IMG/VR virus record: IMGVR_UViG_3300036719_006047
Coordinates: 62,001-126,000 of that record
DNA length: 64,000 bases
From: a virus
Reading direction: 5' to 3' (one strand)
The first letter of the stretch is position 1, and each line of letters opens with the position of its first letter. The translations under genes were made by a program, and so were the position numbers. This document shows, in pieces, positions 35,640 to 61,950 of this stretch. The notes under the pieces were generated by a model. That model made no database searches, was not told the DNA's origin, and saw nothing but the letters and a program-made list of their open reading frames with translations.

Positions 35640-36506
35640 ATGAGCAAGCACGTAGAGCACAAAATTCAGGTAGTCGAGTCGACTTACTACGCTCGCGGGG
35701 TGACGTTGTCGTTCACGACTGAGCTGTGGCGAAACGAGAGCAAATTCGATTCCGAGCATCTGCTCGAATTGTTCTCAAAAATAATCAGCATCGTCGTGAG
35801 AGAGCGCACCGAAGAAATGAACGACATCCAGCCCAGGCTGGGATGGCGCGCAAAGAGGTTGCGCTTCTGCTTGGATTTTGGGTGCAGCACAGGGCAAATC
35901 TACAAGTTCAACTCGCTGGCGAAAGACATTCACACAATACACTCAGAGGAAGAAAGCAAAGCCGAAGAGGAGAGGTTGATTTTCATCCCAGGGAACCTGC
36001 CCGACGTGATGAAGAACATGTCCGCAGGAGAGCTCATAGCGCACTCCATTGAATCGGTCGATGCGGTAGAAATCAGCGTCGACACTTTGCTCGATAAGTC
36101 GTTATACGCAGTCATCTACAATGCGACCGAGCTCAGCAAGTACCGGTCAAGTTCGATTTTGTCGAGCAAAGAAAGCATAGTCGAGGAAGTGAAAGCGGTC
36201 AGGTCCAAGATCAAAGTCTACCAAGAGAGGCAGCGCCTCAACGCTTTCCGCGCTCCTGAGAAGATTAAGGTAGAGATAAGAAACAAGCTGAGATCGCTGA
36301 CGAACAAGGCCGGGGGCACTTTCTACTACGCAGAGCACAACGCAAACGACATCAAAGTGAGACTGAAGCTGGTCGAAGAAATGCTCGAGAAGAGCGGCGT
36401 CAGCGAGGAGATGAAGAGCAATGTGCAGGCTGCTTTGAAGCGCATAGAAGCAGTTCGCGCAGAGCTGAAGGCAGTCAAAGAACTTGTCGAGAAGGAGCTG
36501 CTGTGA
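35640..36506 (+). CDS. Tandem paralogue 1 of the W-[RK]-N family
   Basis: This 288-residue protein has the N-terminal family signature L-W-R-N-E-S-K-F-D-S-E-H-L-L (about residues 25-38). A predicted strand ends in M-S-A-G-E-L-I-A-H-S near 120. The C-terminal ~100 residues are a long helical/coiled-coil region (VEEVKAVRSKIKVYQERQRL and onward). The function is not recognised. It shares the layout with the next four genes and is coupled to them by 4-base overlaps. It and member 2 lack the longer acidic middle insert seen in members 3-5. Confidence 0.75.
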   Translation: MSKHVEHKIQVVESTYYARGVTLSFTTELWRNESKFDSEHLLELFSKIISIVVRERTEEMNDIQPRLGWRAKRLRFCLDFGCSTGQIYKFNSLAKDIHTIHSEEESKAEEERLIFIPGNLPDVMKNMSAGELIAHSIESVDAVEISVDTLLDKSLYAVIYNATELSKYRSSSILSSKESIVEEVKAVRSKIKVYQERQRLNAFRAPEKIKVEIRNKLRSLTNKAGGTFYYAEHNANDIKVRLKLVEEMLEKSGVSEEMKSNVQAALKRIEAVRAELKAVKELVEKELL

Positions 36507-37411
36507 CTGAAAGGGCTGACACAACCATAGTTTCGAGAAGCTTCACGATAGGCAGGCCACAAAATACAAGAACAATTTGTTTCGAGGTGTGGCGAAACAG
36601 GAGCCTTTTCGACAGCGAGGACCTGCTGAGCATCCTTTGCGGGTACTACAGCAAGTTGCTGAACTGCACGTTCGACGCTGATTTCGACCCAGAAGGCGAA
36701 GCTGCTTTCCTGGCAGGCATGCCAGAAAAAGTAGTTGTAGGCGTAGTAGCGGACTGTGTGGCCAACAACCATGCAGGCATAATTGTAATCCGGTTTGGCG
36801 AACTCACTGAGGCCGTTGTAGCGGAGAGACAGCTGGTAGAAAAGTCGACAAAAATGTTCTTCTTGAGAGTTTCGCTGCCCGACCCTCGAACTTCCCTTTC
36901 CGCGAGCGAGCTGTTCGCTGCTTCCACAGAAGAGAACGAAAGTCTGGTACTCAGCTTGAAGCAGCTCGGGATAAAAAGTCTACTCGATGCGTCTTCTGTC
37001 AGCGTGACGACGAGCATGCTGAACAAGACGTTCTTCTACCGATCAGAACTGAAAGAGAAGTTTACTCTGGTTGCGGAAGCTCTTCAGAAAGAAATACCTA
37101 CCGTTGTCGTCCACGCCAAAAAGAGGAACGTAGATGCGTTCTGCAGTGCGAGCACGAAGAGCTCGATCGCAGAGAACAGGTGCAGGCAGCTGTGGGAGTC
37201 TTCAGGGCCTCTCATGAAAGCATCGCAAGCGATCAAGAATGCTGAATTTATGTGTCTCGAAACGCAGCGACTCGCAGAAAGAGCGATGGACGCAGGGTCG
37301 AGCTCAGACGCGGTCCACAAAGTGAAGCGAATATCGAGTGAGTTAGCAGAAATCCAAAAAAGAATAGACGAAATCATCAGCGAGGCAGAGAAAATCGAAT
37401 GGCAATCGTGA
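36503..37411 (+). CDS. Tandem paralogue 2 of the W-[RK]-N family
   Basis: This 302-residue protein has a GTG start overlapping the previous TGA. The signature is V-W-R-N-R-S-L-F-D-S-E-D-L-L (about residues 28-41). The second conserved element is L-S-A-S-E-L-F-A-A-S near 130. The C-terminus is helical, ending in I-Q-K-R-I-D-E-I-I-S-E-A-E-K. Function unknown. Confidence 0.75.
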   Translation: MTERADTTIVSRSFTIGRPQNTRTICFEVWRNRSLFDSEDLLSILCGYYSKLLNCTFDADFDPEGEAAFLAGMPEKVVVGVVADCVANNHAGIIVIRFGELTEAVVAERQLVEKSTKMFFLRVSLPDPRTSLSASELFAASTEENESLVLSLKQLGIKSLLDASSVSVTTSMLNKTFFYRSELKEKFTLVAEALQKEIPTVVVHAKKRNVDAFCSASTKSSIAENRCRQLWESSGPLMKASQAIKNAEFMCLETQRLAERAMDAGSSSDAVHKVKRISSELAEIQKRIDEIISEAEKIEWQS

Positions 37412-38367
37412 CAGCGAAGCAGCCTCTAGTGAGCGAGATTCGCTCGCTCCGAGAAGCAGGAGGCACAGGAAAAAAGATCAAGGTCAGCGTGTGGCGCAAC
37501 ACCACGATCTTTGACGCAGGCGATGTTGCTCGCCTTTGCGCGGCTGTGTCGATCTGTACACAAGAAAGCAATTACTTCATCCAAGAAGAGCCGCAAGAGT
37601 ACAAGTTCGTCTTGCTCAACAAGAAGCAGGAGAGATTCTTTGCGGTGAGTGCCTTGCAAAACGTATCGCTAGCAAAAGTAGCTGCTTGCCCTGACATGAC
37701 CTTAGAGTGGTGGTCCTCGCCTCCGGGAACCACAGGCAGTAAAGTGATCTACGCGTCGAATCAGCTGGCTCAGTCGTCTGCAGCAGAGATCGTTAGCCGA
37801 GAACTCGACTGCTCAGACCCGAAAAGGCCCTTGTTCAAGCTCACGCGAGAAGAGGTGGCTTGCGTTGTGGGAACGATGTATTACGACATTATTTCTGCCT
37901 TCGATTATCGGGAAATCAAAGACTGGCCCATCAGCAGCATAGCGAAAAAGGCATCTCCAATCCGGGAACTGTTCGGGAGAATGCGGCAAAGCGAAAAAGA
38001 GATCAACCCGAACCACCCCGTCATCGCGGGCGTGATCGATCAGATCGAGGAAATGCTGCATCCGCACCCGCTACAGCTGAGATTCGCGAAGAAGCCATTC
38101 TCTTTCAGCGTGTCCCCCGAGAGAGAAAAGCTCCAATTGCTGGAAACGAAGCTGGACAACAGGCGCTGTCGAATCATGACAGCACAAAGAAAGTTGGTTC
38201 GACTGATGAGCAGCAAAAAAGCATTCATTAGCGAACCCTGGGCGTCAGAGGGGTACGATGAAGTGTTGAAGAAGATCGAGCAGTCGTATGAACTGCTACG
38301 TGCAGCAGAGCATGAAATCAGGCTAATGACCGAAAAAGCATTCACCAAGAGGCTTGAAATCAAATGA
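37399..38367 (+). CDS. Tandem paralogue 3 of the W-[RK]-N family
   Basis: This 322-residue protein has the signature V-W-R-N-T-T-I-F-D-A-G-D-V-A (about residues 31-44). The second element is S-S-A-A-E-I-V-S-R-E near 128, followed by a strand-helix unit F-K-L-T-R-E-E-V-A-C-V-V-G-T. That unit is shared with members 4 and 5. The C-terminal half contains L-Q-L-R-F-A-K-K-P-F-S-F-S-V-S-P-E-R-E, also shared with member 4. It overlaps gene 2 by 13 bases. Confidence 0.75.
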   Translation: MAIVTAKQPLVSEIRSLREAGGTGKKIKVSVWRNTTIFDAGDVARLCAAVSICTQESNYFIQEEPQEYKFVLLNKKQERFFAVSALQNVSLAKVAACPDMTLEWWSSPPGTTGSKVIYASNQLAQSSAAEIVSRELDCSDPKRPLFKLTREEVACVVGTMYYDIISAFDYREIKDWPISSIAKKASPIRELFGRMRQSEKEINPNHPVIAGVIDQIEEMLHPHPLQLRFAKKPFSFSVSPEREKLQLLETKLDNRRCRIMTAQRKLVRLMSSKKAFISEPWASEGYDEVLKKIEQSYELLRAAEHEIRLMTEKAFTKRLEIK

Positions 38368-39329
38368 GCTACACTCCGAAAGACCCTGTCGTTGCTCCCA
38401 TCCGTGTGGAGTTCACTCCCGGCCCGTCCTTCAGCGCGAAACCCAGAAAACAAGTGGGCTTCTTGTGGAAGAACACGTCGATTTTCCACAGCGAAGATCT
38501 GTTGCGTTTGTTGCTCATCGTAGGCGCGATCACAGATGAAGACTCTCACTACGAGAATCCGAAAGAAGAAAAACACTTCGTCTTTAGTACCGACACCAGC
38601 GCAAACTGGGTCAACATCGAGCGGCCTTGGCGCAGGAGTGAGCACATGTACGACGTGTCTCCTGTGATGAAAGAATTGTTGACGGAACAACGCTCAAGCA
38701 GCTACTACTGCAAGATCGTGATTGCCACCAATCACCCGGCCAAAGAGACCAGCGCGGAGCTCTTCTCCCGAACCATCGACAACAGCGACGGCAAGTCTTA
38801 CTTCCTCCTTCGCGACGAAGAAGTGATCGAATTGGCCGTTTCTGTCGTTAACTCCATGTACAACAGGGCGTCTGCCGAACTGCAAGCTATTTTCCGGGAG
38901 ACGTTCTTCGGAGGCGTAGACATCAACAGCTTCCACAGCAGAAAATACACTGTGCAGTCTGCGCGAGAGACGTGCGCAAAAAGAGTCGAAGAATTCATTC
39001 GCATGGCCTGCGATGACAAGATCCCGAAGATCAGGTTCAGCAACAAGCAGCTCTTCTTCAGCACTTCCCCCGACAGAGAGCGGCTCGGTGAGATGCAAAG
39101 AGCCTTCAAGACGAAGGCGTACGATGTGAGAGCTGTGCGAAAAAAGTTGCTCAGCATCAAGAAGGTGTCAGAAAAGCAGCTCAAGATTGAGTTTGCAAAG
39201 GAAGCGAACGAAGCGGCAAGACAGCACTTGATCAAGGCGGCGGAAGAGTTGATGAAAGCGGAACAAGCGATGCAGCATGCGATTGACGAAGCTGCGAAGA
39301 ACTACGACAGGATCTCGGAGGTCAAGTGA
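38364..39329 (+). CDS. Tandem paralogue 4 of the W-[RK]-N family
   Basis: This 321-residue protein has the signature L-W-K-N-T-S-I-F-H-S-E-D-L-L (about residues 31-44), then T-S-A-E-L-F-S-R near 135. F-L-L-R-D-E-E-V-I-E-L-A and I-R-F-S-N-K-Q-L-F-F-S-T-S-P-D-R-E align with member 3, so 3 and 4 are the closest pair. The helical C-terminus ends YDRISEVK. Function unknown. Confidence 0.75.
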   Translation: MSYTPKDPVVAPIRVEFTPGPSFSAKPRKQVGFLWKNTSIFHSEDLLRLLLIVGAITDEDSHYENPKEEKHFVFSTDTSANWVNIERPWRRSEHMYDVSPVMKELLTEQRSSSYYCKIVIATNHPAKETSAELFSRTIDNSDGKSYFLLRDEEVIELAVSVVNSMYNRASAELQAIFRETFFGGVDINSFHSRKYTVQSARETCAKRVEEFIRMACDDKIPKIRFSNKQLFFSTSPDRERLGEMQRAFKTKAYDVRAVRKKLLSIKKVSEKQLKIEFAKEANEAARQHLIKAAEELMKAEQAMQHAIDEAAKNYDRISEVK

Positions 39330-40267
39330 AGAAAACTAACCCACAATCAGCAGAGCACAAAGGCCACACAGCTTTCGTCTGGAAGAACAACTCCAACCTG
39401 TACGGGCCCGACTTGGCGCGGTTCGTGTTAGGCGTCATGTCTGTGTCGAATGAGCGCAAGTGCAGAGAGAGCGAAGAGGACAAGGAAGTTCACTTGATCT
39501 TGTTGTCCTCGAAGAGGCTAAACAAGGTTCAAACCGTTGGCAGTTACAGCCCTCTGCTGACGAAAAAGATGGTCGCAAGCTGCCCCAACATGCTGTACAT
39601 GCTTGAGGGGGCGGGTCAGTTGCACTTCAATCACAGGATCTTCCACGTTCCCGACAGGTACTCAGAAGAATCGCACTCACAGAAAATCACGAGAAGGATG
39701 AGCAAAGAAGGCAAGTTAGACCTCTTCAGCCTCAACGGAGAGGAAATCGTCGACATAGCCATAGCGGTATTGAAGTACAGTTGGAACAGCTTGCCGTATG
39801 AAGGCACAAAAGAATTTTGCGATACTCTTGGCGTAGCGGCAGACGTGATGGCTCGCCTTCTGAACATCTCATGCCTCGAAACGTACTTTTACGACAGAGA
39901 GGTAGTTGAGTTCAGGCAGAATCTGGGAGACAAACTCCTCGCAGAGTTCAATGTCACGCGCATCGAAGACATCAACCTCCGCTTCAGGTACCGCAAGTTC
40001 AGCTTCCACACTTGCAGAGACAGGGAAAGAATCAAGGAAGAGAACCAAGTACTGCTCAAAGACTGGCAAAATTTGAAGCAGAGTGCGAAGTACATCAAAA
40101 TCTGCATCGAAAGGAAGCTCAGCGCTTTTGCAGGAGCGGCTGCGATCGAGGAATTTGAAGCGTCAAAGCCATTGCTACAAGAAGCTTTGCTCAATCTCCA
40201 CAAGGCTATGCAGGCCTACGAACTCACCAACAACAAACTCCGGGATGCCTACGATGCGACTCTCTGA
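39326..40267 (+). CDS. Tandem paralogue 5 of the W-[RK]-N family
   Basis: This 313-residue protein has a GTG start. The signature is V-W-K-N-N-S-N-L-Y-G-P-D-L-A (about residues 14-27). L-F-S-L-N-G-E-E-I-V-D-I-A-I and L-R-F-R-Y-R-K-F-S-F-H-T-C-R-D-R-E match the shared elements of members 3 and 4. Its end overlaps the MoxR gene by 14 bases, so the array and ATPase are one translational unit. Confidence 0.75.
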   Translation: MKKTNPQSAEHKGHTAFVWKNNSNLYGPDLARFVLGVMSVSNERKCRESEEDKEVHLILLSSKRLNKVQTVGSYSPLLTKKMVASCPNMLYMLEGAGQLHFNHRIFHVPDRYSEESHSQKITRRMSKEGKLDLFSLNGEEIVDIAIAVLKYSWNSLPYEGTKEFCDTLGVAADVMARLLNISCLETYFYDREVVEFRQNLGDKLLAEFNVTRIEDINLRFRYRKFSFHTCRDRERIKEENQVLLKDWQNLKQSAKYIKICIERKLSAFAGAAAIEEFEASKPLLQEALLNLHKAMQAYELTNNKLRDAYDATL

Positions 40268-41369
40268 TCTGGCTGATGTCATCTTCTCCACTTGGAAGCA
40301 CAACCCCACTCAGTCCATCTTCGTCATGGGGCCGCCCGGCATCGGCAAGACCTCTGTCGCGGCCGCCGTTGTGGATCGCATCCGAAAGTACAACACAGAC
40401 AACAACGTCCAGGGCCCCGTCGTCTGCCACATCAAGGACCTGTCGTCTTCGTTGCCCGAAGACCTCAACGGTCTGCCGAAAACGGACGGCGAGGTGATGC
40501 GCTTCGTTCCCGACACCTGGCTCGCCGAGTGCTGCAACCCTGAAGCCTCCGGCATCCTCATCCTCGACGACCTGCCGGCAGCGACTGCTTCCATTCAGGT
40601 GGCAGCGCGTCAGCTCGTTCTCGACAAGCGCATCCACGAGCACAGGCTGTCCAGCAAAGTCATCGTTGTCGTAACTGGCAATCGTCGTGAGGACGCTTCT
40701 GCGGCCAAGACACTCCCCGCTCACTTCCGCAACTCCGTGTTGACGCTCGAAGCTGAGGCGAACTTGGCGGACTGGACTTCGTGGATGCGCTCCAAGGACG
40801 CAGACCGCTCCGTGACGGACTTCCTGGCCTTCCGGCCGCAGCACTTCTCTCGGCTGCCCGTCAATGCCGACCAGCGCGGGGTGTTCGCAACGCCTCGTAC
40901 CTGGAAGATGCTGTCCGACCTGATGCCGGTCGCTCTCGAGACCAAGAAGCTGTTCGAGATCAGCGCCGGTCTCGTTGGCGAGGGTGTGAGCGCGGAGTTC
41001 GTGGCCTTCAAGGACATGAGTGATGCGCTGCCTGACCCCAAAGCCGTGCTCGAAGACCCCTACAAGCACTACCCCAGCAACCACGACATCTGGTCCAACC
41101 GCCCCGACTTGATGGTTGCCGTGCTGTCGGGCATCTCGTACTACGCAGGCAAGGCCAAGAAGACAAAAGACTTTGTTCCTGTCGACGCTTACGTGAAGGC
41201 TGTTGCCTACTTGTGTTCCCGGTCCACCGAGTACTTCGAGTTCGCTTTCCAGGCTTTCCGCGACAGTGGCGGTCGCGAAATGGCTTTCTTGACGGCCGCG
41301 CAGCAGCTGTCGACGACTGACTCGCGTGTGGCCCAGCTCAAGGCCAAGCTCCGTGAGGTGTTCGCGTGA
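40254..41369 (+). CDS. MoxR-type AAA+ ATPase, copy 1
   Basis: This 371-residue protein has Walker A G-P-P-G-I-G-K-T (26-33), Walker B I-L-I-L-D-D-L (101-107) and sensor 1 V-V-V-T-G-N-R. The L-P-E-D-L-N-G-L-P-K block is typical of the MoxR-like ATPases paired with COG3864 proteins. MoxR ATPases act as chaperones that remodel or load partner complexes, usually with a VWA protein encoded next door, as here. It is about half identical to copy 2 at 59588. An ATG nine bases upstream is also possible. Confidence 0.85.
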   Translation: MRLSDLADVIFSTWKHNPTQSIFVMGPPGIGKTSVAAAVVDRIRKYNTDNNVQGPVVCHIKDLSSSLPEDLNGLPKTDGEVMRFVPDTWLAECCNPEASGILILDDLPAATASIQVAARQLVLDKRIHEHRLSSKVIVVVTGNRREDASAAKTLPAHFRNSVLTLEAEANLADWTSWMRSKDADRSVTDFLAFRPQHFSRLPVNADQRGVFATPRTWKMLSDLMPVALETKKLFEISAGLVGEGVSAEFVAFKDMSDALPDPKAVLEDPYKHYPSNHDIWSNRPDLMVAVLSGISYYAGKAKKTKDFVPVDAYVKAVAYLCSRSTEYFEFAFQAFRDSGGREMAFLTAAQQLSTTDSRVAQLKAKLREVFA

Positions 41370-42538
41370 CTAGCAGAGAAGAGACTTTCGCTCGTTTCTC
41401 GAAGGCGAGAACTTGGTTGATCGGCCGGATGCCTTTCTTCGGGCACCTGGCTCTCAACCTCAAGCTCGATCCTGTGGCCGGGGAAGATCAAGGAGTAGAA
41501 ACGGCTTGCATCTACCCGACGGGTGAACTCATCCTCAACGACAAGTTCGTCGCGTCGTTGACCGATGCTCACTTCAGGTTCGTTCTGGCCCACGAAGTGC
41601 TGCATCCAGCATTGTTGTGCCATGTGCGCCGCAAGGGCAGAGATCATCTCGTCTTCAACATGGCGCACGACTACGCCATCAACTTGATCATCACAGAGGC
41701 AGTCGAAACGGCAAAAGAGCACAACAACTGCTGTATGCCGCTCAAAGGGCTCATCGATAACGCTTACAAAGGCCTTTCCGCAGAAGAAATCTACGACAAG
41801 CTGTTGGAGAAAGCAAGCATCGCTTATTACGCAAAAGGAGGCTTCGATCAAGACGTCGCAGAGAAAGAAGCCAAGACTGAGGACAAGGAGCAAGACAGCA
41901 TCTGGAAAATGCGTCTCGCGGCTGCGAGCGTAGCGGCTTCTCGCTCGAAGAGAGGCAACATTCCTGCCGGGTTGCAGAAGATCATACAAGAGATTTTGCA
42001 GCCCCAGGTGTACTGGCTTGATGTTCTCGCGGAGTACGTGTCGGGTTGTTTGGGCGGAGACATTTTCACTTACAGCAGGCTGAACCGCCGGTCAGAGGGC
42101 GCAGGATGCATCCTGGCCGGAAAGATCAGCGATGAGATGCCCGAAGTGACAGTGTTGTGGGACACGAGCGGTTCGCAGCAGGGGTGGGAAGACACCGTTT
42201 TCGCGGAGCTGAAAAAGCTGCAAGATGACATGGCGGTGCCCTTCCGGCTCATGATCATCGATACCGTGTTGTACGCAGACATGATGGTAGACGACGTCGA
42301 CGATACTCTTTCACAGCTCAAAGGTGGCGGCGGCTCCGACTTCAAACCCGCTTTCGAGAAGCTCGAGCAAGAGAACAACCAGTCAGTCGTCATCGCATTC
42401 ACAGACGGCGCGATCGGTGTGCCAGAGACACCGCCACCGTTGCTCAAAGATGTCATCTGGGTGCTGACGGGACACTATTCGAGCCCCCCGGCACAGTACG
42501 GCCGCTCGATCTACATCGAGAAAGGAAAGTCGAAATGA
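41366..42538 (+). CDS. COG3864-type metallopeptidase-VWA protein, copy 1
   Basis: This 390-residue protein starts at a GTG overlapping the ATPase stop. The N-terminal domain has the zinc motif H-E-V-L-H (76-80) with H86, the HExxH of DUF2201/COG3864 putative metallopeptidases. The C-terminal VWA-like domain has D-T-S-G-S (266-270), G-G-G-S-D-F and F-T-D-G. This fused architecture is the standard partner of MoxR ATPases. The cleavage target is unknown. A Lys/Glu-rich linker (around 160-178) joins the two domains. Confidence 0.85.
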   Translation: MTSREETFARFSKARTWLIGRMPFFGHLALNLKLDPVAGEDQGVETACIYPTGELILNDKFVASLTDAHFRFVLAHEVLHPALLCHVRRKGRDHLVFNMAHDYAINLIITEAVETAKEHNNCCMPLKGLIDNAYKGLSAEEIYDKLLEKASIAYYAKGGFDQDVAEKEAKTEDKEQDSIWKMRLAAASVAASRSKRGNIPAGLQKIIQEILQPQVYWLDVLAEYVSGCLGGDIFTYSRLNRRSEGAGCILAGKISDEMPEVTVLWDTSGSQQGWEDTVFAELKKLQDDMAVPFRLMIIDTVLYADMMVDDVDDTLSQLKGGGGSDFKPAFEKLEQENNQSVVIAFTDGAIGVPETPPPLLKDVIWVLTGHYSSPPAQYGRSIYIEKGKSK

Positions 42539-43323
42539 AAGAAGGCGATGCCATCACGCACTTCGACAACTCTTTGCTAAACCCAGAACTGGAGGGAAAT
42601 CCGAAATACTGCTTCCGGATTCGAGTGATCGGCAACAACACAGAGCTGAGCACACAGCACGTAGAGAACACGGTCAACAACGCGCTGCGGCTTGCCTGCG
42701 AAGAAGACAAGCTGCCCGCTTCTGTGTCAGAGAAGCTTGAGCCGGTTTACACGCTGTTGGTGCTGAACCGGTTGAGACGAACAAGCAAGCGGGACTGGCA
42801 GTTGTCGCGGTTTGTTGAAAGCTGTCGCCTGTTCGCCAAGGTGAGCTCCATTTACGCCCTGAAACAGGTAAAGCCAAAAATGAGAGTGTCACCTGCTCTG
42901 TTTGTGTTGGACGTGTTTGACGCATCAAAGGTCTTCAGCGCGTCAGAGCTGATCGCTTTTTCTTCTCCCACAGGACTTGTTGTCCCCGGTAGTGAGATTG
43001 CAGGGCTTGCGTCATACGTGCTGCAGAGGCTCGAAAACCCCGACGATGTCAGATTTAAGCGGCGAGATGAGATACTGGTCCGAGTGTGCGCGGAAGCTCT
43101 GATTGCGACAAGGAAGCCGAAGCAAGAAGGTGTAACCGCCAAAGAAGCAGTAGCACTCGGCAAGAAAATCGCAGCGCACCGCACTCGGCGGCTGAAGATG
43201 GAAAGGCTGCAGAAGAACTTGAGAGAAGCACAAAGAACCCTAGCAAAGCTGTCCCGAGATAGCCGCAACGATCTCAAGCAAGACATGAAAGACTTCTACA
43301 CAAAGGGGACTCGCAAGAGATGA
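42535..43323 (+). CDS. Divergent sixth member of the W-[RK]-N paralogue family
   Basis: In this 262-residue protein, I-R-V-I-G-N-N-T-E-L-S-T-Q-H-V (about residues 25-39) fits the family signature with the Trp lost. F-S-A-S-E-L-I-A-F-S near 130 matches the second element of members 1 and 2. The helical basic C-terminus also fits. It lies between the VWA gene and cas6 with 4-base overlaps on both sides. The assignment is from pattern only. Confidence 0.6.
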   Translation: MKEGDAITHFDNSLLNPELEGNPKYCFRIRVIGNNTELSTQHVENTVNNALRLACEEDKLPASVSEKLEPVYTLLVLNRLRRTSKRDWQLSRFVESCRLFAKVSSIYALKQVKPKMRVSPALFVLDVFDASKVFSASELIAFSSPTGLVVPGSEIAGLASYVLQRLENPDDVRFKRRDEILVRVCAEALIATRKPKQEGVTAKEAVALGKKIAAHRTRRLKMERLQKNLREAQRTLAKLSRDSRNDLKQDMKDFYTKGTRKR

Positions 43324-43904
43324 ACGACCGCACGTACCGCTTCCCTCTGAAAAAAGGCGCGAAGCTCAAGGAAGACAACGGCTACGCTCTGTTGGCGGGA
43401 TTGACCTCCATCGCTCCGTTCCTTCACGGCAGGGAGAGTGTCCAGATCGCACCTATCGCGGGATCTCGCGTCAGCAGCGGTGTTCTCGTGACTGACGCAC
43501 GAAGCAAACTGCAGGTGAGAGGCATCACCCGGGAAGAAGCTGAACTGCTCCAGAAAAAGACTTTTCACGTTTCGGGAGAGGAGGTTGAGACTGGCCTGTT
43601 CCAGGAGGTGAAGTTTGCGTTCTTCCCCTGCTTGGCTTCTCGCCTTGTGATCTTCCGAGATGTGTTCAGCAAAGAGCAGTTCATCGAGAAGGTCAAAGAA
43701 GTTGCAAGGTCAGGCGATGTGGAGCTGGGGCGCCGGAGAGTGTTGACTCTCAAGAACAACAGCATGATCGGCTTCAGCGTGGTTTTGAAAGGACTGAAAG
43801 AAGAAGATTCGATCCGACTTCAGGCGGAAGGGATGGGCAAGTTCACGTCGATGGGTTGCGGGGTGTTTCACCACTTCCGACCGAACAGCACTCAACTGCG
43901 ATAA
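43320..43904 (+). CDS. cas6: Cas6-family protein (myxobacterial-type, PF09559-like), solitary
   Basis: This 194-residue protein follows the PF09559/TIGR02807 Cas6 pattern as I recall it from end to end: Y-R-F-P-L near residue 6, D-N-G-Y-A-L-L-A-G-L (19-28), P-F-L-H with H36, then S-x-L-x-V-R-G. The C-terminal glycine-rich loop S-I-R-L-Q-A-E-G-M-G and M-G-C-G-V-F (about 164-183) completes it. Family length is ~200-230. Cas6 cleaves CRISPR repeat RNA. The His of the usual D-H-G-Y is Asn20 here, so activity may be altered. No CRISPR array or other cas gene is in the window. It overlaps the upstream gene by four bases. Confidence 0.8.
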   Translation: MNDRTYRFPLKKGAKLKEDNGYALLAGLTSIAPFLHGRESVQIAPIAGSRVSSGVLVTDARSKLQVRGITREEAELLQKKTFHVSGEEVETGLFQEVKFAFFPCLASRLVIFRDVFSKEQFIEKVKEVARSGDVELGRRRVLTLKNNSMIGFSVVLKGLKEEDSIRLQAEGMGKFTSMGCGVFHHFRPNSTQLR

Positions 43905-43984
43905 GCGGCAGAGGTAGACGATGAAAATGAACTTTGATTGTGTGCCGGAAGAGATGCTGTAGCCCCTGCCTGGAGGAACTGGAA

Positions 43985-44596
43985 ATGAAGTCAGTCGCTC
44001 ATCCGAAAATCCGCACCATGTGTGAGATGGCTTGCCGGATTCGAGACATGTACGGGTACAAGTGGGTCTTGCACAAACCCAAGCACATCGAATGGCTGTT
44101 GTCCGACTCTCCCATCGGCCCATTTTCGCTCAAGTTGACGGGAAGAAAGAGGAGCAACTTTGTAGTGCTGTTATCGGCCGGTCCTTTCGACGGATGGACC
44201 GGAGGCAGCGAAACCTGCCCCGAAGAGCAAAAGTACTACGCAGCTCTGATCCACGAGATGAGCCACCTGACGCTCATGGATGGTTCTCCTGAAGACATGG
44301 GCACCGAAGAAGAAGGTGTCGTGCTCGAGACCGCGTGGCTTGATGCTTTGAGACCGACAAGGGAGATCAGAGCCGGGTACCGGGAGTACTCTATCGACAA
44401 AACAGAGATAGTCATAGACTACGAGAAGTGGGCCACCATGAACTACTCCGATATTCGAGGCCCGAAGAAGATGAAGTGGTGGGAGGAAGCACAGAAAATT
44501 TTGATCGAGAAAGGCGTCTTGACCAAAGGTGGCGCCCCGACCTGGAAGCGTACGAGGATGGGAGATGCCAAACACTCTGCCCGAAAATTGGTTTGA
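43985..44596 (+). CDS. Putative HExxH metallopeptidase, last gene of the Cas6/MoxR operon
   Basis: I chose the ATG at 43985, with GGAGG seven bases upstream. The 203-residue protein has H-E-M-S-H (90-94) in a hydrophobic helix (YYAALIHEMSHLTL), a zincin-type motif. No further ligand is certain; E and H candidates follow. The sequence otherwise matches no family I recognise. It is separated from cas6 by 80 bp holding only a possible 13-codon peptide (43921-43962). Confidence 0.65.
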   Translation: MKSVAHPKIRTMCEMACRIRDMYGYKWVLHKPKHIEWLLSDSPIGPFSLKLTGRKRSNFVVLLSAGPFDGWTGGSETCPEEQKYYAALIHEMSHLTLMDGSPEDMGTEEEGVVLETAWLDALRPTREIRAGYREYSIDKTEIVIDYEKWATMNYSDIRGPKKMKWWEEAQKILIEKGVLTKGGAPTWKRTRMGDAKHSARKLV

Positions 44597-44831
44597 GGTA
44601 ACACCAGCCTGCTACGAGTACAGGTGCTTTCCGTTCGATACGGACAAATACGGCAAACCGAAGCCGGGAACAGCATACCTCACTGTCGTTACGGTACAGA
44701 AGCGAGAAAACTCTATCGAGGTCAGCATAGACTCTTTTTCCGGAGGCTACGCTGACGGAGCAGCCGCACTGTCGACAGAGATACCGTTAGAGATTATAAA
44801 TCGCTTGATAGCAAGCAGACCGAAGGAGTGA
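44565..44831 (+). CDS. Unknown 88-aa protein; its 3' end is duplicated at 46972
   Basis: The start ATG has GAGG seven bases upstream and overlaps the previous gene by 32 bases. The protein is alpha/beta with V-T-V-Q-K-R-E-N-S-I-E-V-S-I-D. Its last 19 codons, its stop and the following ribosome site lie within the 99-bp direct repeat found again at 46972-47070. Confidence 0.65.
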   Translation: MPNTLPENWFEVTPACYEYRCFPFDTDKYGKPKPGTAYLTVVTVQKRENSIEVSIDSFSGGYADGAAALSTEIPLEIINRLIASRPKE

Positions 44832-44871
44832 CCGCATGACCCGCTCCCTGATCCCTTTCCTGGCTGTCGTT
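44773..44871 (+). repeat. 99-bp direct repeat, left copy
   Basis: It matches 46972-47070 at 97 of 99 positions. It covers the end of the 88-aa gene, the GGAGTG ribosome site and the first 12 codons (MTRSLIPFLAVV) of the following secreted-protein gene. The 2.1 kb between the copies carries the FGE-domain gene. Confidence 0.9.
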
Positions 44872-45024
44872 TATGGACTACTTCTGAAGTCTGCGCCGGT
44901 TGCGGCGCATGGTGGTGGCTTCGATGCGTCCAGGTTCAAAACCTGCGGGCAAAATCAAAATTGGCCGAAGTGGATGTTCAATCTTGATTGTCTGGAGTCA
45001 AAAAATGAAGTATCTGAACAATGA
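44836..45024 (+). CDS. Short secreted peptide, 62 aa
   Basis: The signal peptide M-T-R-S-L-I-P-F-L-A-V-V...A-A-H shares its first 12 residues (one change) with the 47035 lipoprotein because of the direct repeat. The mature part is only ~38 residues with two Cys. It may be a truncated remnant: the repeat-derived start fused to unrelated sequence. It overlaps the next gene by 20 bases. Confidence 0.5.
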   Translation: MTRSLIPFLAVVYGLLLKSAPVAAHGGGFDASRFKTCGQNQNWPKWMFNLDCLESKNEVSEQ

Positions 45025-46417
45025 CGATGATCTCATTCTCCCTCCTCCTGAGAAATCACTCCCGCAAAGACATGCCGGGAGGGTGGGTTTGGGAGTAGGG
45101 GTTGCAACAATAGTCGGGGTTATTACCTTTGGCACTATGGTCGATCTCAGGGCAGATCTTGAGAAAACCCAGAGTGAGATTATGAGGCTCAAAGACGCCC
45201 TCGCACTTGAAACCGAACTTCTGAACAGGAAGCTCAATAAAGTCCAGAGGGTCCAGGAGAAAACACTTCAAGTGGAGGCACGGCTCATCCAAGTAGGGAA
45301 GACGGGGCACGAGGCTTGCGTGGAGGCGGGCTTTACTTGTGGCTTTGTCCTTTCTACGTCAGTCGTAGACTCAAAAACAGTAGACTTTGCTGGGTGGCAT
45401 GTGAGCACCTGCGACTCGAAGGTCTACAAGTCCCGCGGAAAACATCTCCTCACTGGAGATTACATCCGTGGACCTGGCGTGAAGGGGGCTTATAGTGATG
45501 ATCTCCTCCTTTTAGAGGGGGAAGATAGCTACACCGCATACTGTATCACCAACCCCAGCCGGGGTTCAGAGATTCCCTTTTCGCCCATTACTGGGGGTTC
45601 GGTGGATTACCCGATGGTTCAAGTCCCAGCGGGCACCTTCGTGATGGGCTCCCCGGGGGACGAGGCAGGGCGGTACATCGACGAGGTGCAGCATTGGGTG
45701 ACGCTGAGCCGCGGCATCTGGATGGGGACGACGGAGGTCACGCAGGGGCTGTGGCGGGCGGTGATGGGGAGCAACCCGTCCACCGCCGAGTACGAGGGTG
45801 TGTCGCTGGTGGGCGCCACGCTGCCGGCGCAGACCGTGAGCTGGTGCGAGGCGGTGGCCTTCGCGAACCGGCTGTCGGCGCGGGAGGGCCTGCCGGCGGC
45901 GTACCGCGGGGTGGACCAGTGCGAGGCCAGCGAAGGCACCAGCGTGGTCTGGGACCGGTCCAGCGCGGGCTACCGGCTGCCGACGGAGGCGGAGTGGGAG
46001 TACGCGGCCCGCGGGGGCGTGGGTGGCGCATATGCGGGCGGGGTGAAGGCGGAGGGGGTGTGCGCGGTGGCGAACGTGCTGAACCCGTCGGCGAAGCAGC
46101 GCTTCGGCTTCGACCATGAGGCCTTCGGGTGCGAAGACGGGCACGCGGGCGCGGCGCCGGTGGGGAGCTTCCGGGCGAACGGGTACGGCCTGCACGACAT
46201 GACGGGCAACGTGTGGGAGTGGTGCTGGGACTGGTACGGGGCCTACGGCGGCGCCAGCGCTGACCCCACGGGGGCCCAGTCCGGCCGCAACCGGGTGGTT
46301 CGCGGCGGCTCCTGGTTCGGCGACCCGCGCCGCGCCCGGGTCGCCCGCCGCGACGGGGGCGTGCCCGGCTTCCGCGTTGACTACCTCGGCTTGCGTCTCG
46401 TGAGGACGGTCTTTTGA
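45005..46417 (+). CDS. Membrane-anchored FGE-sulfatase (SUMF1-like) domain protein
   Basis: This 470-residue protein has a membrane helix at 26-46 and a coiled coil at about 50-95. From about residue 203 it carries an FGE-sulfatase domain: V-P-A-G-T-F-V-M-G, T-E-V-T-Q-G-L-W, L-P-T-E-A-E-W-E-Y-A-A-R-G, G-N-V-W-E-W and R-G-G-S-W...L-G-L-R-L-V. This C-type-lectin fold either oxidises sulfatase Cys or serves as a binding scaffold, including as a diversity-generating-retroelement target. The FGE part is far more GC-rich than the N-terminal third, so the gene looks chimeric. Confidence 0.8.
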   Translation: MKYLNNDDDLILPPPEKSLPQRHAGRVGLGVGVATIVGVITFGTMVDLRADLEKTQSEIMRLKDALALETELLNRKLNKVQRVQEKTLQVEARLIQVGKTGHEACVEAGFTCGFVLSTSVVDSKTVDFAGWHVSTCDSKVYKSRGKHLLTGDYIRGPGVKGAYSDDLLLLEGEDSYTAYCITNPSRGSEIPFSPITGGSVDYPMVQVPAGTFVMGSPGDEAGRYIDEVQHWVTLSRGIWMGTTEVTQGLWRAVMGSNPSTAEYEGVSLVGATLPAQTVSWCEAVAFANRLSAREGLPAAYRGVDQCEASEGTSVVWDRSSAGYRLPTEAEWEYAARGGVGGAYAGGVKAEGVCAVANVLNPSAKQRFGFDHEAFGCEDGHAGAAPVGSFRANGYGLHDMTGNVWEWCWDWYGAYGGASADPTGAQSGRNRVVRGGSWFGDPRRARVARRDGGVPGFRVDYLGLRLVRTVF

Positions 46418-46430
46418 TCGCAGGGCATGA

Positions 46431-46458
46431 CTTGGATCGGGAATTGTCCTGATCCAAG
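46431..46458 (+). terminator. Hairpin after the FGE-domain gene
   Basis: CTTGGATCGGG (46431-46441) pairs with CCTGATCCAAG (46448-46458), 11 pairs with one G-T, around AATTGT. It starts 14 bases after the stop and has no T-run. Confidence 0.5.
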
Positions 46459-46512
46459 CATCAGTAAGGCTTCTTCAAAGCTTTACTTGACCAGTCACTT
46501 AAGGAGGATCAA

Positions 46513-46923: not shown

Positions 46924-46971
46924 GGGATTTTGGTCAGCATATCCCCAGTCTGATTTCTCGCGCTGCCTTGG

Positions 46972-47070
46972 CGACAGAGATACCGTTAGAGATTATCAAT
47001 CGCTTGATAGCAAGCAGACCGAAGGAGTGACCGCATGACCCGCTCCCTGTTCCCTTTCCTGGCTGTCGTT
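46972..47070 (+). repeat. 99-bp direct repeat, right copy
   Basis: It differs from the left copy at two positions. It carries a start-less remnant of the 88-aa gene's last 19 codons, then a functional ribosome site and the signal-peptide codons of the 47035 gene. Recombination or duplication is the simplest origin. Confidence 0.9.
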
Positions 47071-48855
47071 GCTGGGTGCAACTCGAAGCAAGTCATTGAA
47101 GACGCGCAGTGCTCTGATGAGGAGCAGGGCATGTTTATGGCGTGCCTTTCCTCAGGGTGTTCCGCCTCCTACGCGCAGGACCTCAGCGGCGCGGACTCCT
47201 GTTCGGTCGAAGGTGGCGGTACAGTTGTCTCAGTCGAAGCTGGCGGAGAGTGTGGTTTTACGTCTTCCGGCTCATGCTACGTCTTGTGTGATTGCCCCGA
47301 TGGAGTGGGCGTAGAGTTCAACACCGCGGACCGAGAACCGCAAGAATCTCCTTCTGAGTATGAAGGCGACATGGCAGGAGAGTGCTCAGACAGGGCAGAC
47401 AATGATCGAGATGGCCTGTACGACTGCAACGATCCCGACTGCGAGGGAAGCCCGGACTGCGCGGAAAGTGTGGACACTGCGGATAGTTCGGAGGAACCCG
47501 GCACGGAGGACACTGGCGCTCCGGAAGACACAGGAGAAACTGGGGGAGAAGACCCTGCAGTAGACGCCGACGGTGACGGGTACACCGTGGGCGACGGAGA
47601 CTGCAACGACCGCAATCCGGCGATCAACCCCTCCTCCACGGATATCGTCGGCGACCTGATCGATCAGAACTGCGACGGGATTGACGGCACCGACATGGAC
47701 CGCGATGGGTTTGCTTCCGAAGCCAGCGGCGGCAGCGACTGCGACGACTTCGACGCAGTGATCAACCCCAACTACGGAATTTGGGATGAGACGGATTACG
47801 TAGATTCAAACTGTGACGGAGAGGACGGTCTGAACTGGACATACAAATCATTAACGCTTTCTCACCTGTACATCCGGAATACGGGTGACTTTGACGGAGA
47901 CTCTAAAACTGATTTAGTTCTGTACGAAACAAGAACAGGGGATGTATGTATAATTTTCGGCTCATCTCTATCTTCTTCTGCTGTCAGTGTGATGACTGCA
48001 TCAGATTGTGATATTCTAACAGATATTGGGGGACAAGAATTTTCTGTCGGCGATGTTGATTCTGACGGAAAAGACGACCTCCTACACAAAAATTATTCGA
48101 CGGGAACCGGATACTTGTTTTACGGGTCCACAATAGCAACATCAACAGCATTATGGTCTGGGTCTAATCACGACATTGTTATTTCTCCCGGTTGGGGGTC
48201 GATCACATATTTTCAGATTATCGAAGACGTCAATGGTGATTCTGTCGATGACATTTTTGTCTACGCATCTTCTTACGTGCACATTCTTGTGTCGCCTTTC
48301 ACTCGTTCGTCTTTGACCGTATCAACAGACAAGCTTGTGTCCTTGACAGGAACCTACGCCTATGACGGGATAACTGTCTTACCACTGGATCTAAACTACA
48401 ACGGTAAAATGGATTTTCTATTTGATCGAGGCTATGCGGATGTGAGTACCAGCAAACGAAATTTCTCGACATTTTTCCCAACAGGTGTGTTGCCTGATAT
48501 TGATGGGGACGGAAACAAAGAAATAACAGACGGAAATTGCGTTCAGAACGCTAGCAACTACTCAGACAGTTCTTTTTGTGACTACTACGTAAGCTACACA
48601 TTGACCGCGCGGCAACTGGCAGATTTTGATGGAGACGGACTTGCAGACGACTACTTCTACTGTTCTGTGATCCACTCAACATATTACGACTGCTACATTA
48701 AGAAAGACATTCTGTTGGCGCCGGGCTCAAATGTACACATCCACGGAGCTCACGCTAACGAGAACTATTTCTTCTCTGGTGACTTTAACGGAGATGGAAA
48801 GGACGAGATCGTTGCGTCTGATGGCAGTAGCAGCAATATAATCGGATTCAGGTAA
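47035..48855 (+). CDS. Lipoprotein with MopE-type metal-binding and FG-GAP repeats
   Basis: This 606-residue protein has a signal peptide with lipobox V-A-G-C15. C-S-D-R-A-D-N-D-R-D-G-L-Y-D-C-N-D-P (about 118-135) and two MopE-like D-x-D-G-D-G-Y...D-C-N-D...I-N-P units (about 178-260) typify Myxococcota surface proteins. The rest has about seven D-x-[DN]-G-D/N-x-x-D calcium loops spaced like an FG-GAP beta-propeller. The first ~260 codons are GC-rich and the propeller part AT-rich, so the gene is a composite. It is expected on the cell surface of the infected host. Confidence 0.8.
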   Translation: MTRSLFPFLAVVAGCNSKQVIEDAQCSDEEQGMFMACLSSGCSASYAQDLSGADSCSVEGGGTVVSVEAGGECGFTSSGSCYVLCDCPDGVGVEFNTADREPQESPSEYEGDMAGECSDRADNDRDGLYDCNDPDCEGSPDCAESVDTADSSEEPGTEDTGAPEDTGETGGEDPAVDADGDGYTVGDGDCNDRNPAINPSSTDIVGDLIDQNCDGIDGTDMDRDGFASEASGGSDCDDFDAVINPNYGIWDETDYVDSNCDGEDGLNWTYKSLTLSHLYIRNTGDFDGDSKTDLVLYETRTGDVCIIFGSSLSSSAVSVMTASDCDILTDIGGQEFSVGDVDSDGKDDLLHKNYSTGTGYLFYGSTIATSTALWSGSNHDIVISPGWGSITYFQIIEDVNGDSVDDIFVYASSYVHILVSPFTRSSLTVSTDKLVSLTGTYAYDGITVLPLDLNYNGKMDFLFDRGYADVSTSKRNFSTFFPTGVLPDIDGDGNKEITDGNCVQNASNYSDSSFCDYYVSYTLTARQLADFDGDGLADDYFYCSVIHSTYYDCYIKKDILLAPGSNVHIHGAHANENYFFSGDFNGDGKDEIVASDGSSSNIIGFR

Positions 48856-48907
48856 CAAGAGAACAACACAGGCTGAATGCTTAATTACAGCACATTGGAG
48901 GTAAAAA

Positions 48908-50065: not shown

Positions 50066-50138
50066 GTTAGACCTTGTGCAAGCGAGGAGGGCTCGGAGCT
50101 TACTTTGACATCAACAAAACGTTTGCGGGGAAGAAGTA

Positions 50139-51239: not shown

Positions 51240-51658
51240 GTGCAACGCCCAAGTACCTCTACTGCATCGAAGCCAAGCTGTCCGATAACCGTTGGACCAC
51301 GGTCGTAGGGGAGCAGGACGGGTCACTTGAATACATGCGCGGCCGCTTCGATGCATTTCGAGAGAGGCCAGGCCCGCAACCTGCCTTCCGTCTCTTGCGG
51401 ATGAACGTTAAAGACGCTTCCGCAGGCGCCAAGGTATTGTACGAGATCCACGAAAAAACTGAGCTTTCTGTAGGCGCGATGCCACAAACAGTCGGGTTTC
51501 AGTGGTCGAGGTATGCCAGTGCTGCGGCTGACGCACTTCACACGGCAGCGCATGATGTTCGATATGCGGCCCGAAACAACCCCGAGCTGCAACAGCATCA
51601 CGAAAAACTCATAGCTCTCGCCTCCGAAGTAGAGAGACTTCTGCCGACAAGTGGTTAA
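51236..51658 (+). CDS. Unknown 140-aa protein
   Basis: The GTG start is coupled to the cupin-like gene. The N-terminal half is alpha/beta and the C-terminal half is Ala-rich helix (AAADALHTAAHDVRYAA). No family is recognised. Confidence 0.7.
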   Translation: MSATPKYLYCIEAKLSDNRWTTVVGEQDGSLEYMRGRFDAFRERPGPQPAFRLLRMNVKDASAGAKVLYEIHEKTELSVGAMPQTVGFQWSRYASAAADALHTAAHDVRYAARNNPELQQHHEKLIALASEVERLLPTSG

Positions 51659-51682
51659 GAGGTAAGGCAGAGAGGTATAAGT

Positions 51683-52758: not shown

Positions 52759-52798
52759 CCACGACTGAACCGCAAACACAATAGGCAGGAAGAAAGTT

Positions 52799-59081: not shown

Positions 59082-59591
59082 ATGATCACAGTTCTAGGAG
59101 AACACACACTGAAACTGGACGGGCAAGACGTAGTGCTCGTCGAGCTGAAAGATGAGACGACGGGGGCAATCTCTTTCGTAACCAAGTATCCGGTGACGAG
59201 AGACTTGTTTCCTGCGATTGAACCAAGCGGGAAAGCCAGCGAAGCCCTGCAAATCGAGGAGAGGAACTTCAACTTAGGCACGACAGAAGCTGTGATCGAA
59301 GAGGTTGCGAAGCAAGATCCTATCCTTTCGCACTACCAGTACCCCGAGAGAACAGACCACCTGCTCCGAGCGGTAAGCGAAGACAGTGGTCTGAGAGCAT
59401 CTTTGCTCTCGAGCAGCTTGCTGAAAAAGATGTTTTTGACCGAGAGGATGTTCGGAAACGATCTTGTCTTGTCCCATGAAGTTGCGTTCAAAGAGAACAG
59501 ATTGCCATTCCGTCTGAGCCACGCAACACAGAGTGTTTGCGGAGTGCTCTTTATCCCCTGCAACATCCCTGTCCTAGTGAGGAAGTCATGA
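59082..59591 (+). CDS. Unknown 169-aa protein upstream of MoxR copy 2
   Basis: A beta-rich N-terminus (VLGEHTLKLDGQDVVLVEL) precedes a helical remainder. It has no counterpart in the first MoxR operon by eye. It overlaps the ATPase gene by four bases, so it is probably a dedicated partner. Confidence 0.7.
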   Translation: MITVLGEHTLKLDGQDVVLVELKDETTGAISFVTKYPVTRDLFPAIEPSGKASEALQIEERNFNLGTTEAVIEEVAKQDPILSHYQYPERTDHLLRAVSEDSGLRASLLSSSLLKKMFLTERMFGNDLVLSHEVAFKENRLPFRLSHATQSVCGVLFIPCNIPVLVRKS

Positions 59592-60694
59592 AGTTCGCCC
59601 AAGCTGTCCGTCTCGTCTGCGCCAACCACAAGTCCAGCACGAAGCAGACGTTGTTTTTCCTCGGCCCGCCCGGCATCGGCAAGAGCAGCATCGCTTACGA
59701 GGCGAAGCGGGTGCTGAAAGAAACTGACTTGATCGACGTTGACGTGGTTGTTGTCGACCTCAGCAACGCTTTGCCCGAAGACCTCAACGGTCTGCCGAAG
59801 ACTGAAGGCGAGGTGATGCGCTTCATTCCAGACGAATGGCTGCACCGCCTTTGTCGGCCGGGGGCACAAGCTATTTTGGTGCTCGACGACCTCGCAGCGG
59901 CCTCGTCTGCCATTCAGGTGGCCACTCGTCAGCTTGCGCTCGATCGCAGGATTCACAATCACATCTTGTCTGATGGCGTAAGCATCATCGTCACGGGTAA
60001 CAGGTCAACAGACGGCGCGAAAGCCACACAGCTTCCGAGCCACTTCCGCAACTCAGTGCTTCTGATCTCGATCGATCCCGACTTTGATGCGTGGGTTTCG
60101 TGGTACAGGCACCAAGAGAACGTCGACCGCTCTATTGTCTCGTTCCTGTTATTCGCAAAGAAGTTCTTCAGCACTGTGCCGCAAGAAGCCGACAAGCTCG
60201 GAGCTTTCGCTACTCCCCGTTCGTGGTCGATGCTGGGTAGGTTGCTGCCACAAGTCGTGCCCTTGGGGGACGAAGACATTCTTCGCGAGACAGTCCACGG
60301 CCTCGTCGGCACAGGGCCGGGCGTAGAGTACTTGGCCTTCCGGTCCATGCAGAACGACACTGTCGACATCCAAGACTTCTTGCGAGACCCGAAAAGGACG
60401 CTGCCTGCTCCTTCCGACCTCGAGCGCTCCTACTTGATCGCGATCTGCTCGGCTGCCGTGACTCGCGTGGTCGAGGGCAAAGGGTCCGATGACTACGACA
60501 AGTTGGTCTACGCGATGGCGCACGTGGCGACCGACAAAAGAGACTTGTTTGCTTACGCCTTCCAGCTCGCTGAGTCGCTCGGAGGCAAGGAAGCTCGCCA
60601 GAGGTTCAGCTTTGCCGTGAGCCGGGTGGCGAAGCAAGACAAGTCGGTTCTCAGCTTGGTCAAGACCATCTCTGACTTGCTGGGTCAGTTCTGA
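59588..60694 (+). CDS. MoxR-type AAA+ ATPase, copy 2
   Basis: This 368-residue protein has Walker A G-P-P-G-I-G-K-S (26-33) and Walker B I-L-V-L-D-D-L (96-102). The A-L-P-E-D-L-N-G-L-P-K-T block, S-H-F-R-N-S-V-L and the I-V-T-G-N-R sensor are shared with copy 1 at 40254. It probably works with the next gene, as MoxR/VWA pairs do. Confidence 0.85.
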   Translation: MKFAQAVRLVCANHKSSTKQTLFFLGPPGIGKSSIAYEAKRVLKETDLIDVDVVVVDLSNALPEDLNGLPKTEGEVMRFIPDEWLHRLCRPGAQAILVLDDLAAASSAIQVATRQLALDRRIHNHILSDGVSIIVTGNRSTDGAKATQLPSHFRNSVLLISIDPDFDAWVSWYRHQENVDRSIVSFLLFAKKFFSTVPQEADKLGAFATPRSWSMLGRLLPQVVPLGDEDILRETVHGLVGTGPGVEYLAFRSMQNDTVDIQDFLRDPKRTLPAPSDLERSYLIAICSAAVTRVVEGKGSDDYDKLVYAMAHVATDKRDLFAYAFQLAESLGGKEARQRFSFAVSRVAKQDKSVLSLVKTISDLLGQF

Positions 60695-61950
60695 TGCAAG
60701 ACTTGAACAATAAGTGGGAAGCAGCTCTGCTTTCTCTGTCCTTCGCGTATCCCTTCTACGCGCACTTGCTCTACAAGGCGAAGCTGCAGTTTGTCGACAA
60801 CGACAAGTTGACTGCAAAGGTCAACCACAAGCTTGAGATCAAGATGGGAGCGAAGTTTGCGCGAAGCCTGTCGCAGACAGAGTTCTCGGGAGTTGTTCTT
60901 CACGAGGTATTGCACGTTGTGCTCGGATACCACGAACGGCTCAACACCAAAGACCATGTTTTGTTCAATATCGCTCACGACTACATCGTGAACGGCCTTG
61001 TGCAAGAAGCGCAGAAACACAAGTTCCGAGGGAATGACGTAGTCTGCTTGGCGGATGGATGTCTTCTCGAGCCGACGTGGTCGCACCTGGCTGCAGAAGA
61101 GATCTATGCTTTCTTGTCGGAGAGAGTCGAGAACAACGGAGGCAAAAGGAAGGTTAAGCTCAAATGCTACAACAAGACGAAGGGCAACTCGGAAGAAGTT
61201 GAAGTCGATCTCAACGAAAGCATGTACACGGACGTGGAAGAGTACGATCTACTGAGCGAATCTGAGATCAGGCAGCTGTCCTTGGAGATGGCGCAGCTAC
61301 TCAAAGAAGCAGAAATGCATCACAAGAGCAGCCGAGGAACTCTGCCCAGCGAGCTGCAGATCCGCATCGACGCTATTTGCACGCCGAAGATCCACTGGAA
61401 CTCCTTCATACGGAATCATGTGGGTAGTCGAATCGGTTCGCCCCATCCCACCTACATGCGCCGAAGCAGGAGGTCGGAAGCAGTAGGAGAGATACTTCCT
61501 GGATGGCGCAAAGATTCAGCCTCAAACATCATCTTGTTGTGGGACACCAGCGGGTCGATGTACGGGATGCACGAAGTTATTCTTTCTGAGTTTCGGTCTC
61601 TCGTGAGAGAGATGGGCTACTCGCTGCGCCTCATTCAGTGCGACGCGGCCGTGCAGTCAGACATGCTCCTCGAAGACGAGACTGTCATCGTCAAAGGCCA
61701 CGGCGGCTCCGATTTCCAGCCAGCGTTCAAGCTGCTGGAAGAGGAAAACGAGGATGTGTACGTCATCGCAATGACGGACGGGGAGATTGGGTACCCAGAA
61801 GACAAGCCAAGCTGCGTAAAGGACATTTTGTGGGTCTACACAAGGCTTTATTCCGGCTACCCGCCGCCTTACTTGTTCTCTTACGGAGACTGCATTCAGT
61901 TCGACGTCAAAGAAGGGACCGTCACTATCTTGCGTCGAGGTCACGCCTAA
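60694..61950 (+). CDS. COG3864-type metallopeptidase-VWA protein, copy 2
   Basis: This 418-residue protein has the zinc motif H-E-V-L-H (70-74) with H80, and a VWA-like domain with D-T-S-G-S (284-288), G-G-S-D-F-Q-P and M-T-D-G. It has the same architecture as the 41366 protein, with a different charged linker region. It shares one base with the ATPase stop and one with the next start. Duplication of the whole ATPase/VWA unit within the phage is the simplest explanation. Confidence 0.85.
   Translation: MQDLNNKWEAALLSLSFAYPFYAHLLYKAKLQFVDNDKLTAKVNHKLEIKMGAKFARSLSQTEFSGVVLHEVLHVVLGYHERLNTKDHVLFNIAHDYIVNGLVQEAQKHKFRGNDVVCLADGCLLEPTWSHLAAEEIYAFLSERVENNGGKRKVKLKCYNKTKGNSEEVEVDLNESMYTDVEEYDLLSESEIRQLSLEMAQLLKEAEMHHKSSRGTLPSELQIRIDAICTPKIHWNSFIRNHVGSRIGSPHPTYMRRSRRSEAVGEILPGWRKDSASNIILLWDTSGSMYGMHEVILSEFRSLVREMGYSLRLIQCDAAVQSDMLLEDETVIVKGHGGSDFQPAFKLLEEENEDVYVIAMTDGEIGYPEDKPSCVKDILWVYTRLYSGYPPPYLFSYGDCIQFDVKEGTVTILRRGHA

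Follow-up and report, generated by a model that had tools for sequence, protein, structure and literature searches.

The window analysed here is a 64,000-nt stretch of DNA that spans positions 62001-126000 of the IMG/VR virus record IMGVR_UViG_3300036719_006047 (136,910 nt in total), and it encodes a 194-residue protein that, to judge from its sequence and predicted fold, is a member of the Cas6/Cmx6 family. Cas6 proteins bind and cut the guide RNAs of CRISPR (clustered regularly interspaced short palindromic repeats) systems in bacterial immunity. The viral gene, with an intact open reading frame (ORF) from the ATG at 43320 to the stop at 43904 (positions are those of the window unless stated otherwise), stands alone, and its product is altered at positions conserved in the family; a lone, altered Cas6 in what is here called a phage suggests takeover for another job, possibly interference with the CRISPR defence of the host.

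A Cas6-family protein altered at presumed catalytic and RNA-contact positions

An earlier note on this DNA claimed that the protein follows the PF09559/TIGR02807 pattern along its whole length, and both profiles match above their cut-offs: PF09559 with an E-value of 2.9e-32 and 112.7 bits (cut-off 26.7; residues 12-184 aligned with profile positions 8-187 of 191) and TIGR02807 with 103.6 bits (curated cut-off 98.85). Six Cas6 models of PADLOC also match, with E-values from 2e-33 to 7e-26. The AlphaFold2 model, for which the input alignment comprised 45 family members, has a mean predicted local distance difference test score (pLDDT) of 93.9 and shows the tandem pair of RAMP/ferredoxin-like domains known from experimental structures of Cas6. 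In a Foldseek comparison with the PDB, the Cas6 chain 8fcu_B, from the Cascade of a type I-B CRISPR-associated transposon (CAST), ranks first (E 2e-16, template modelling score 0.83 over the query), and the CAST Cas6 chains are followed by archaeal Cas6 and Cas6e. Profile search and structure prediction, the two tests by which the note proposed that the assignment could be refuted, have thus left it standing. The designation 'myxobacterial type' is no more than the name of the profile (I-MYXAN); the relatives found are cyanobacterial, acidobacterial, one from Bacillota, and type I-B CAST. In the phylogenetic tree, the phage protein forms a very long branch with no supported placement; a grouping with CAST Cas6 is neither demonstrated nor rejected (approximately unbiased test, p-AU 0.295). 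The protein is basic (isoelectric point 9.76, net charge +9; family medians 9.39 and +7), and because its charge is not below the family level, RNA binding is plausible for a protein of this predicted fold.

When the phage Cas6 is aligned with 54 relatives, all 14 invariant columns are found to be kept (G13, D19, G48, R67, R108, G151, L159, D163, S164, Q168, G171, G173, G181 and F183), although part of this retention is expected because the relatives were fetched using motifs of the phage protein itself. The motifs D19-N20-G21-Y22 and, at the C-terminus, M178-G-C-G-V-F183 are present exactly as previously claimed, and Asn20 indeed replaces the usual His of the family, which is found in 49 of the 54 relatives and, going by other families of Cas6, is presumed to be catalytic. 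The glycine spacing of the C-terminal loop is preserved (G171, G173, G179, G181, F183); within the loop, the family glycine at position 174 (53/54) is Lys, the Lys or Arg at 175 (54/54) is Phe, and Thr and Ser replace the mostly basic residues at 176 and 177 (K174-F175-T176-S177). Asn at the His position also occurs in Cas6 of type I-B2 CASTs, as D-N-G-Y (L016, L063 and PDB 8fcj_B), and in a Chamaesiphon relative, as D-N-A-Y (L026), and Gln occupies this position in L032 and L049; despite the Asn, L016, L063 and L026 retain the basic glycine loop. We read this pattern as pointing to selection for the Cas6 core combined with change in the catalytic and RNA-contact parts, since retention of the 14 invariant residues alongside loss of the His at 20, the Gly at 174 and the basic residues at 175-177 argues for altered function rather than decay. 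With the catalytic-type His and the basic residues of the glycine loop gone, cutting of canonical repeats has probably been lost or changed; canonical cleavage appears impaired and inactivity is likely, but active His-less Cas6 enzymes exist (PMC3652601), so the loss of the His is no proof of it.

The cas6 gene is alone in its record. The earlier note saw neither CRISPR repeats nor another cas gene in 64 kb and advised a search of the rest of the genome, and the absence now extends to the whole 136,910 nt: no second Cas6 is encoded, and tblastn and hidden Markov model searches derived from the fetched I-MYXAN and CAST loci detect no Cas3, Cas8, Cas7, Cas5, Cas4-1 or Cas2 in the record. It contains no CRISPR array either, CRISPR-like spacing being limited to repeat-rich genes and low-complexity runs. 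The cognate repeat of the family, recovered from arrays beside the relatives, is 36 nt long (GTG..ACCTTTGATGCCGTAAGGCGTTGAGCAC). A weight matrix of 31 such repeats reaches at best 4.6 bits in the record, whereas random sequence attains a maximum of 5.5 on average and the training repeats score at least 29, and the best covariance-model hits, with E-values of 1.5 record-wide and 0.19 in an unfiltered search near the gene, are not above chance. Spacers from the fetched loci have no convincing match in the record. The phage protein is not part of any type I-MYXAN system.

The relatives sit in cas loci, which makes this solitude exceptional. Nearly all of the set L016-L063 have cas3, cas8, cas7 or cas5 nearby (L026 is on a 5-kb contig with a WYL regulator as its sole accompaniment); in all 11 new full-length matches from a later search (L078, L080-L089), cas3 is no more than about 2 kb away. 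Viral contigs, 2.9 million in number, were scanned four times with Cas6 queries and four times with neighbouring genes; these scans, as well as INPHARED (tblastn), PHROGs and BFVD structures, yielded no second viral Cas6, with the reservation that the contig scans use short peptide patterns and could therefore miss distant viral relatives. The literature searched, which included few subscription papers, yielded no account of a stand-alone Cas6 encoded by a phage. The cas6 gene of the Gloeobacter morelensis plasmid pGMOR1 was considered as a parallel solitary case and rejected, its neighbours matching type IV csf2 and csf3. In this locus (L064:8852-14888, NZ_CP063846.1), a 263-aa Cmx6-type Cas6 is flanked by matches to Csf2/Cas7 (E 1.4e-6) and Csf3/Cas5 (E 1.1e-12), and a gene of the CysH/PAPS-reductase family is also present; the arrangement is type IV-B-like with an I-MYXAN-type Cas6, which type IV-B systems normally lack.

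The cas6 operon and the viral record

As the earlier note proposed, cas6 lies in a phage-like operon (Table 1). The genes are co-directional, the order from 40245 to 43904 being MoxR ATPase, DUF2201-VWA protein, 262-aa protein and Cas6. The last three genes are joined by successive overlaps of 4 nt and are similar in GC content and in GC at third codon positions (GC3), and cas6 therefore has the appearance of an established phage gene that is expressed with its neighbours, co-expression with MoxR-VWA being suggested by the gene layout.

Table 1. Features at and around the cas6-like gene (window coordinates)
Feature	Position	Strand	Remarks
Five co-directional genes, about 270-320 aa, upstream	35640..40267	+	last three are mutual paralogues
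MoxR-type AAA+ ATPase	40245..41369	+	PF00004 above cut-off; phrog_1297 E 6e-57
DUF2201 metallopeptidase-like/VWA protein	41417..42538	+	PF13203 E 2e-22, PF09967 E 9.7e-11; phrog_1314 E 2e-64; 4-nt overlap with next gene
262-aa protein, candidate partner	42535..43323	+	4-nt overlap (ATGA) with cas6; no homologue found
cas6-like gene	43320..43904	+	194 aa; Cas6/Cmx6 family; N20 for family His, G-K-F-T for GG[KR][RQHK] in glycine loop
Gap of about 80 nt 3' of cas6	43904..43985	+	hairpin, minimum free energy -22.7, z -2.27; 13-codon ORF; candidate, unsupported RNA element
203-aa protein with HExxH (zincin-like) motif	43985..44596	+	downstream of cas6; putative operon member
Second MoxR/VWA pair, without cas6	59588..61950	+	40% and 35% identical to pair beside cas6

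A single-sequence model of the 262-aa protein (pLDDT 48.9) was too poor for use, and the HExxH protein has no Pfam, PHROGs or PADLOC family. The MoxR-VWA pair beside cas6 is a diverged duplicate of the pair at 59588-61950, and a third pair lies at L004:1843-5073; thus, one phage record carries three paralogous MoxR ATPase/DUF2201-VWA pairs, in addition to a separate VWA protein (31991-34411). The second pair is 57% and 42% identical to a pair in the viral contig L066, with a conserved five-gene order; the 66.7 kb of L066 contain no Cas6, and none of six viral records with MoxR relatives, some of them short, encodes one. Genes for the DUF2201-VWA partner occur in phages generally (297 phage records), so the link between MoxR-VWA and Cas6 is a lead that a single genome provides. 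No VMAP was seen. MoxR-vWA ternary systems are known as conflict systems (PMC7159879), and vWA-MoxR modules have been found near CRISPR loci (PMC10910872).

Immediately after the cas6 operon, a 114-nt direct repeat (93%; 44763-44876 and 46962-47075) brackets a GC-rich gene with an FGE-sulfatase/SUMF1 domain (45005-46417) together with a small membrane protein; the cassette seems to have arisen by insertion or duplication. Two adjoining strong hairpins (46427-46490; z -3.6 for a 97-nt stretch) separate the FGE-sulfatase gene from the one that follows.

The phage-type genes of the record include RIIA/RIIB, ParB-like, Sak4, SSB, exonuclease, several helicases, MazG and a fusion of uracil-DNA glycosylase (UDG) with PolA, and a cluster of nine tRNA genes is located at 5011-6093 on the plus strand. 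The 136,910 nt show no terminal repeats, and the record is probably a genome fragment. Two Pfam models and phrog_2 gave no significant match to terminase, and no capsid gene was recognised in PHROGs and Pfam scans of selected proteins; the term phage accordingly rests on the IMG/VR call and the phage-type genes. The UDG-PolA protein (L002:11779-16581, minus strand; 1601 aa) combines uracil-DNA glycosylase, 3'-5' exonuclease and family A DNA polymerase and is interrupted by an intein with a LAGLIDADG homing endonuclease. Two tandem paralogues of about 850 aa (L002:3653-8760), 44% identical and with repeated G-S-G-x-Y-S-Y motifs, are adhesin- or tail-fibre-like and belong to no database family. 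Before the window, at 46945-61137 of the record (L004, L005), there is a tandem family of at least 12 paralogues, all of them repeat-rich, in which the DNA repeats are of the GGCGCCGGTGAGGTT type.

Possible functions of the phage Cas6

The best reading of the sequence is that of a phage-captured Cas6, probably impaired in cleavage and still able to bind RNA, which is more likely to have been turned against host CRISPR RNA (crRNA) maturation or another RNA than to serve an array of the phage. The likeliest function, to which we assign a probability of about 0.38, is that of a Cas6 mimic that interferes with the maturation of crRNA or the assembly of Cascade in the host. Under this proposal, the phage would have captured a host Cas6 (type I-B/I-MYXAN or CAST) and kept it for a new job, the protein remaining folded, basic and RNA-binding while the cutting of canonical repeats was probably lost or changed. 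During infection, it would behave as a dominant-negative Cas6 that binds host pre-crRNA or occupies the place of Cas6 on host Cascade, and functional crRNA-Cascade would fail to form. Phage attack on this step has a precedent in the RNA anti-CRISPRs, which bind Cas6f (PMC10651486). An extended version, in which a decoy Cas6 with a rebuilt active site and RNA loop is coupled to the MoxR-VWA pair as a chaperone-like module and blocks or redirects type I-B/I-MYXAN crRNA maturation, is offered tentatively.

Several points weigh against interference with host crRNA. The proposal presupposes a type I-B/I-MYXAN system in the host; no known anti-CRISPR gene was seen beside cas6; the lost charges of the glycine loop could also abolish binding of the cognate repeat; retention at D19-Y22 and in the EDS-LQ stretch is inflated by the motif-based fetching of relatives; and crenarchaeal Cas6 enzymes cleave RNA without the His (PMC3652601).

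The same replacement of the canonical His and of the basic loop residues, together with the lack of a cognate repeat in the record, the very long branch and the basic character of the protein, would also fit a repurposed phage regulator that binds or processes RNA, acting on mRNA or tRNA transcripts of phage or host and unrelated to CRISPR. The moderately stable hairpin directly 3' of cas6 also counts in its favour; however, it reaches a z of only -2.3 and has no relative for covariation, and a simple k-mer count finds no repeated motif widely common to the intergenic regions. This alternative, the strongest of those considered, appears rather unlikely.

Alternatively, the protein could be an active Cas6 whose specificity has changed and which matures the crRNA of an array outside the record, either in a missing part of the phage genome or in the host in trans. 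This would be consistent with the preserved fold and invariant core, the probable fragmentary nature of the record, the existence of His-less enzymes (PMC3652601) and the ability of CASTs to use host crRNAs via Cas6 (review PMC11656645). Such a lone Cas6 would, however, need foreign Cas7/5/8, and 137 kb without an array, a repeat or an I-MYXAN/CAST Cas homologue make this improbable.

About equally improbable is that the Cas6-like protein serves a MoxR-VWA module of the phage as its effector or adaptor, in which case it would recognise RNA and the AAA+/VWA pair would act on the bound complex. The same-strand 4-nt overlaps, the duplication of another MoxR-VWA pair of the same phage in the pair beside cas6, and the conflict-system role (PMC7159879) and CRISPR proximity (PMC10910872) of such modules speak for it; the absence of Cas6 from six further viral records that encode a MoxR relative, the generality of DUF2201-VWA in phages, the missing VMAP and an association confined to one genome speak against it. 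A recent functionless relic or an assembly chimera, suggested by the lack of viral relatives in the searched collections, is highly improbable for an intact ORF with all invariant residues, neighbour-like composition and an overlapping start; the gene is also flanked to left and right by genes of phage type, and 31 kb separate it from the closer end of the record.

Complete CRISPR systems, mini-arrays, solitary repeats and anti-CRISPR proteins are all known from phages. If the phage Cas6 acts on host crRNA, it would inhibit through mimicry of a Cas protein, and the decoy would be the mirror image of the RNA anti-CRISPRs; if it acts on another RNA, it would represent a Cas6 exapted outside CRISPR. 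For a direct test of either role, a single protein of 194 aa and the known 36-nt repeats suffice.

Comparison with known systems

Type I-MYXAN Cas6/Cmx6 (TIGR02807/PF09559), exemplified by the protein of Gloeothece citriformis PCC 7424 plasmid pP742402 (L008), resembles the phage protein in profile, fold and invariant core, aligns with it over the whole length at 23-33% identity and shares the GxGx5GxGxF glycine loop, but has the His and the basic loop residues that the phage protein lacks. In the type I-MYXAN loci, the gene also has cas3-cas8-cas7-cas5-cas1-cas2 next to it and an array whose repeats measure about 36 nt, none of which accompanies the phage gene. Crenarchaeal SsoCas6 is likewise devoid of the active-site His; it is, however, active as a dimer and processes crRNA by means of lysines and further basic residues, whereas the phage protein has neither basic loop residues nor an array (PMC3652601). 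The RNA anti-CRISPRs and solitary repeat units offer an analogy for the proposed function, phage interference at the Cas6 step of crRNA maturation, but these are repeat-like RNAs captured by host Cas6, whereas here the phage has a protein and no repeat (PMC10651486). Cas6 of type I-B2 CASTs (PDB 8fcj/8fcu) is the best match of the phage protein both in structure and in PDB sequence, and the two share D-N-G-Y; the phage protein differs from L016 and L063, which appear to be type I-B2 CAST, in that those retain the basic GGK loop and are encoded together with Cas8 and Cas7 genes.
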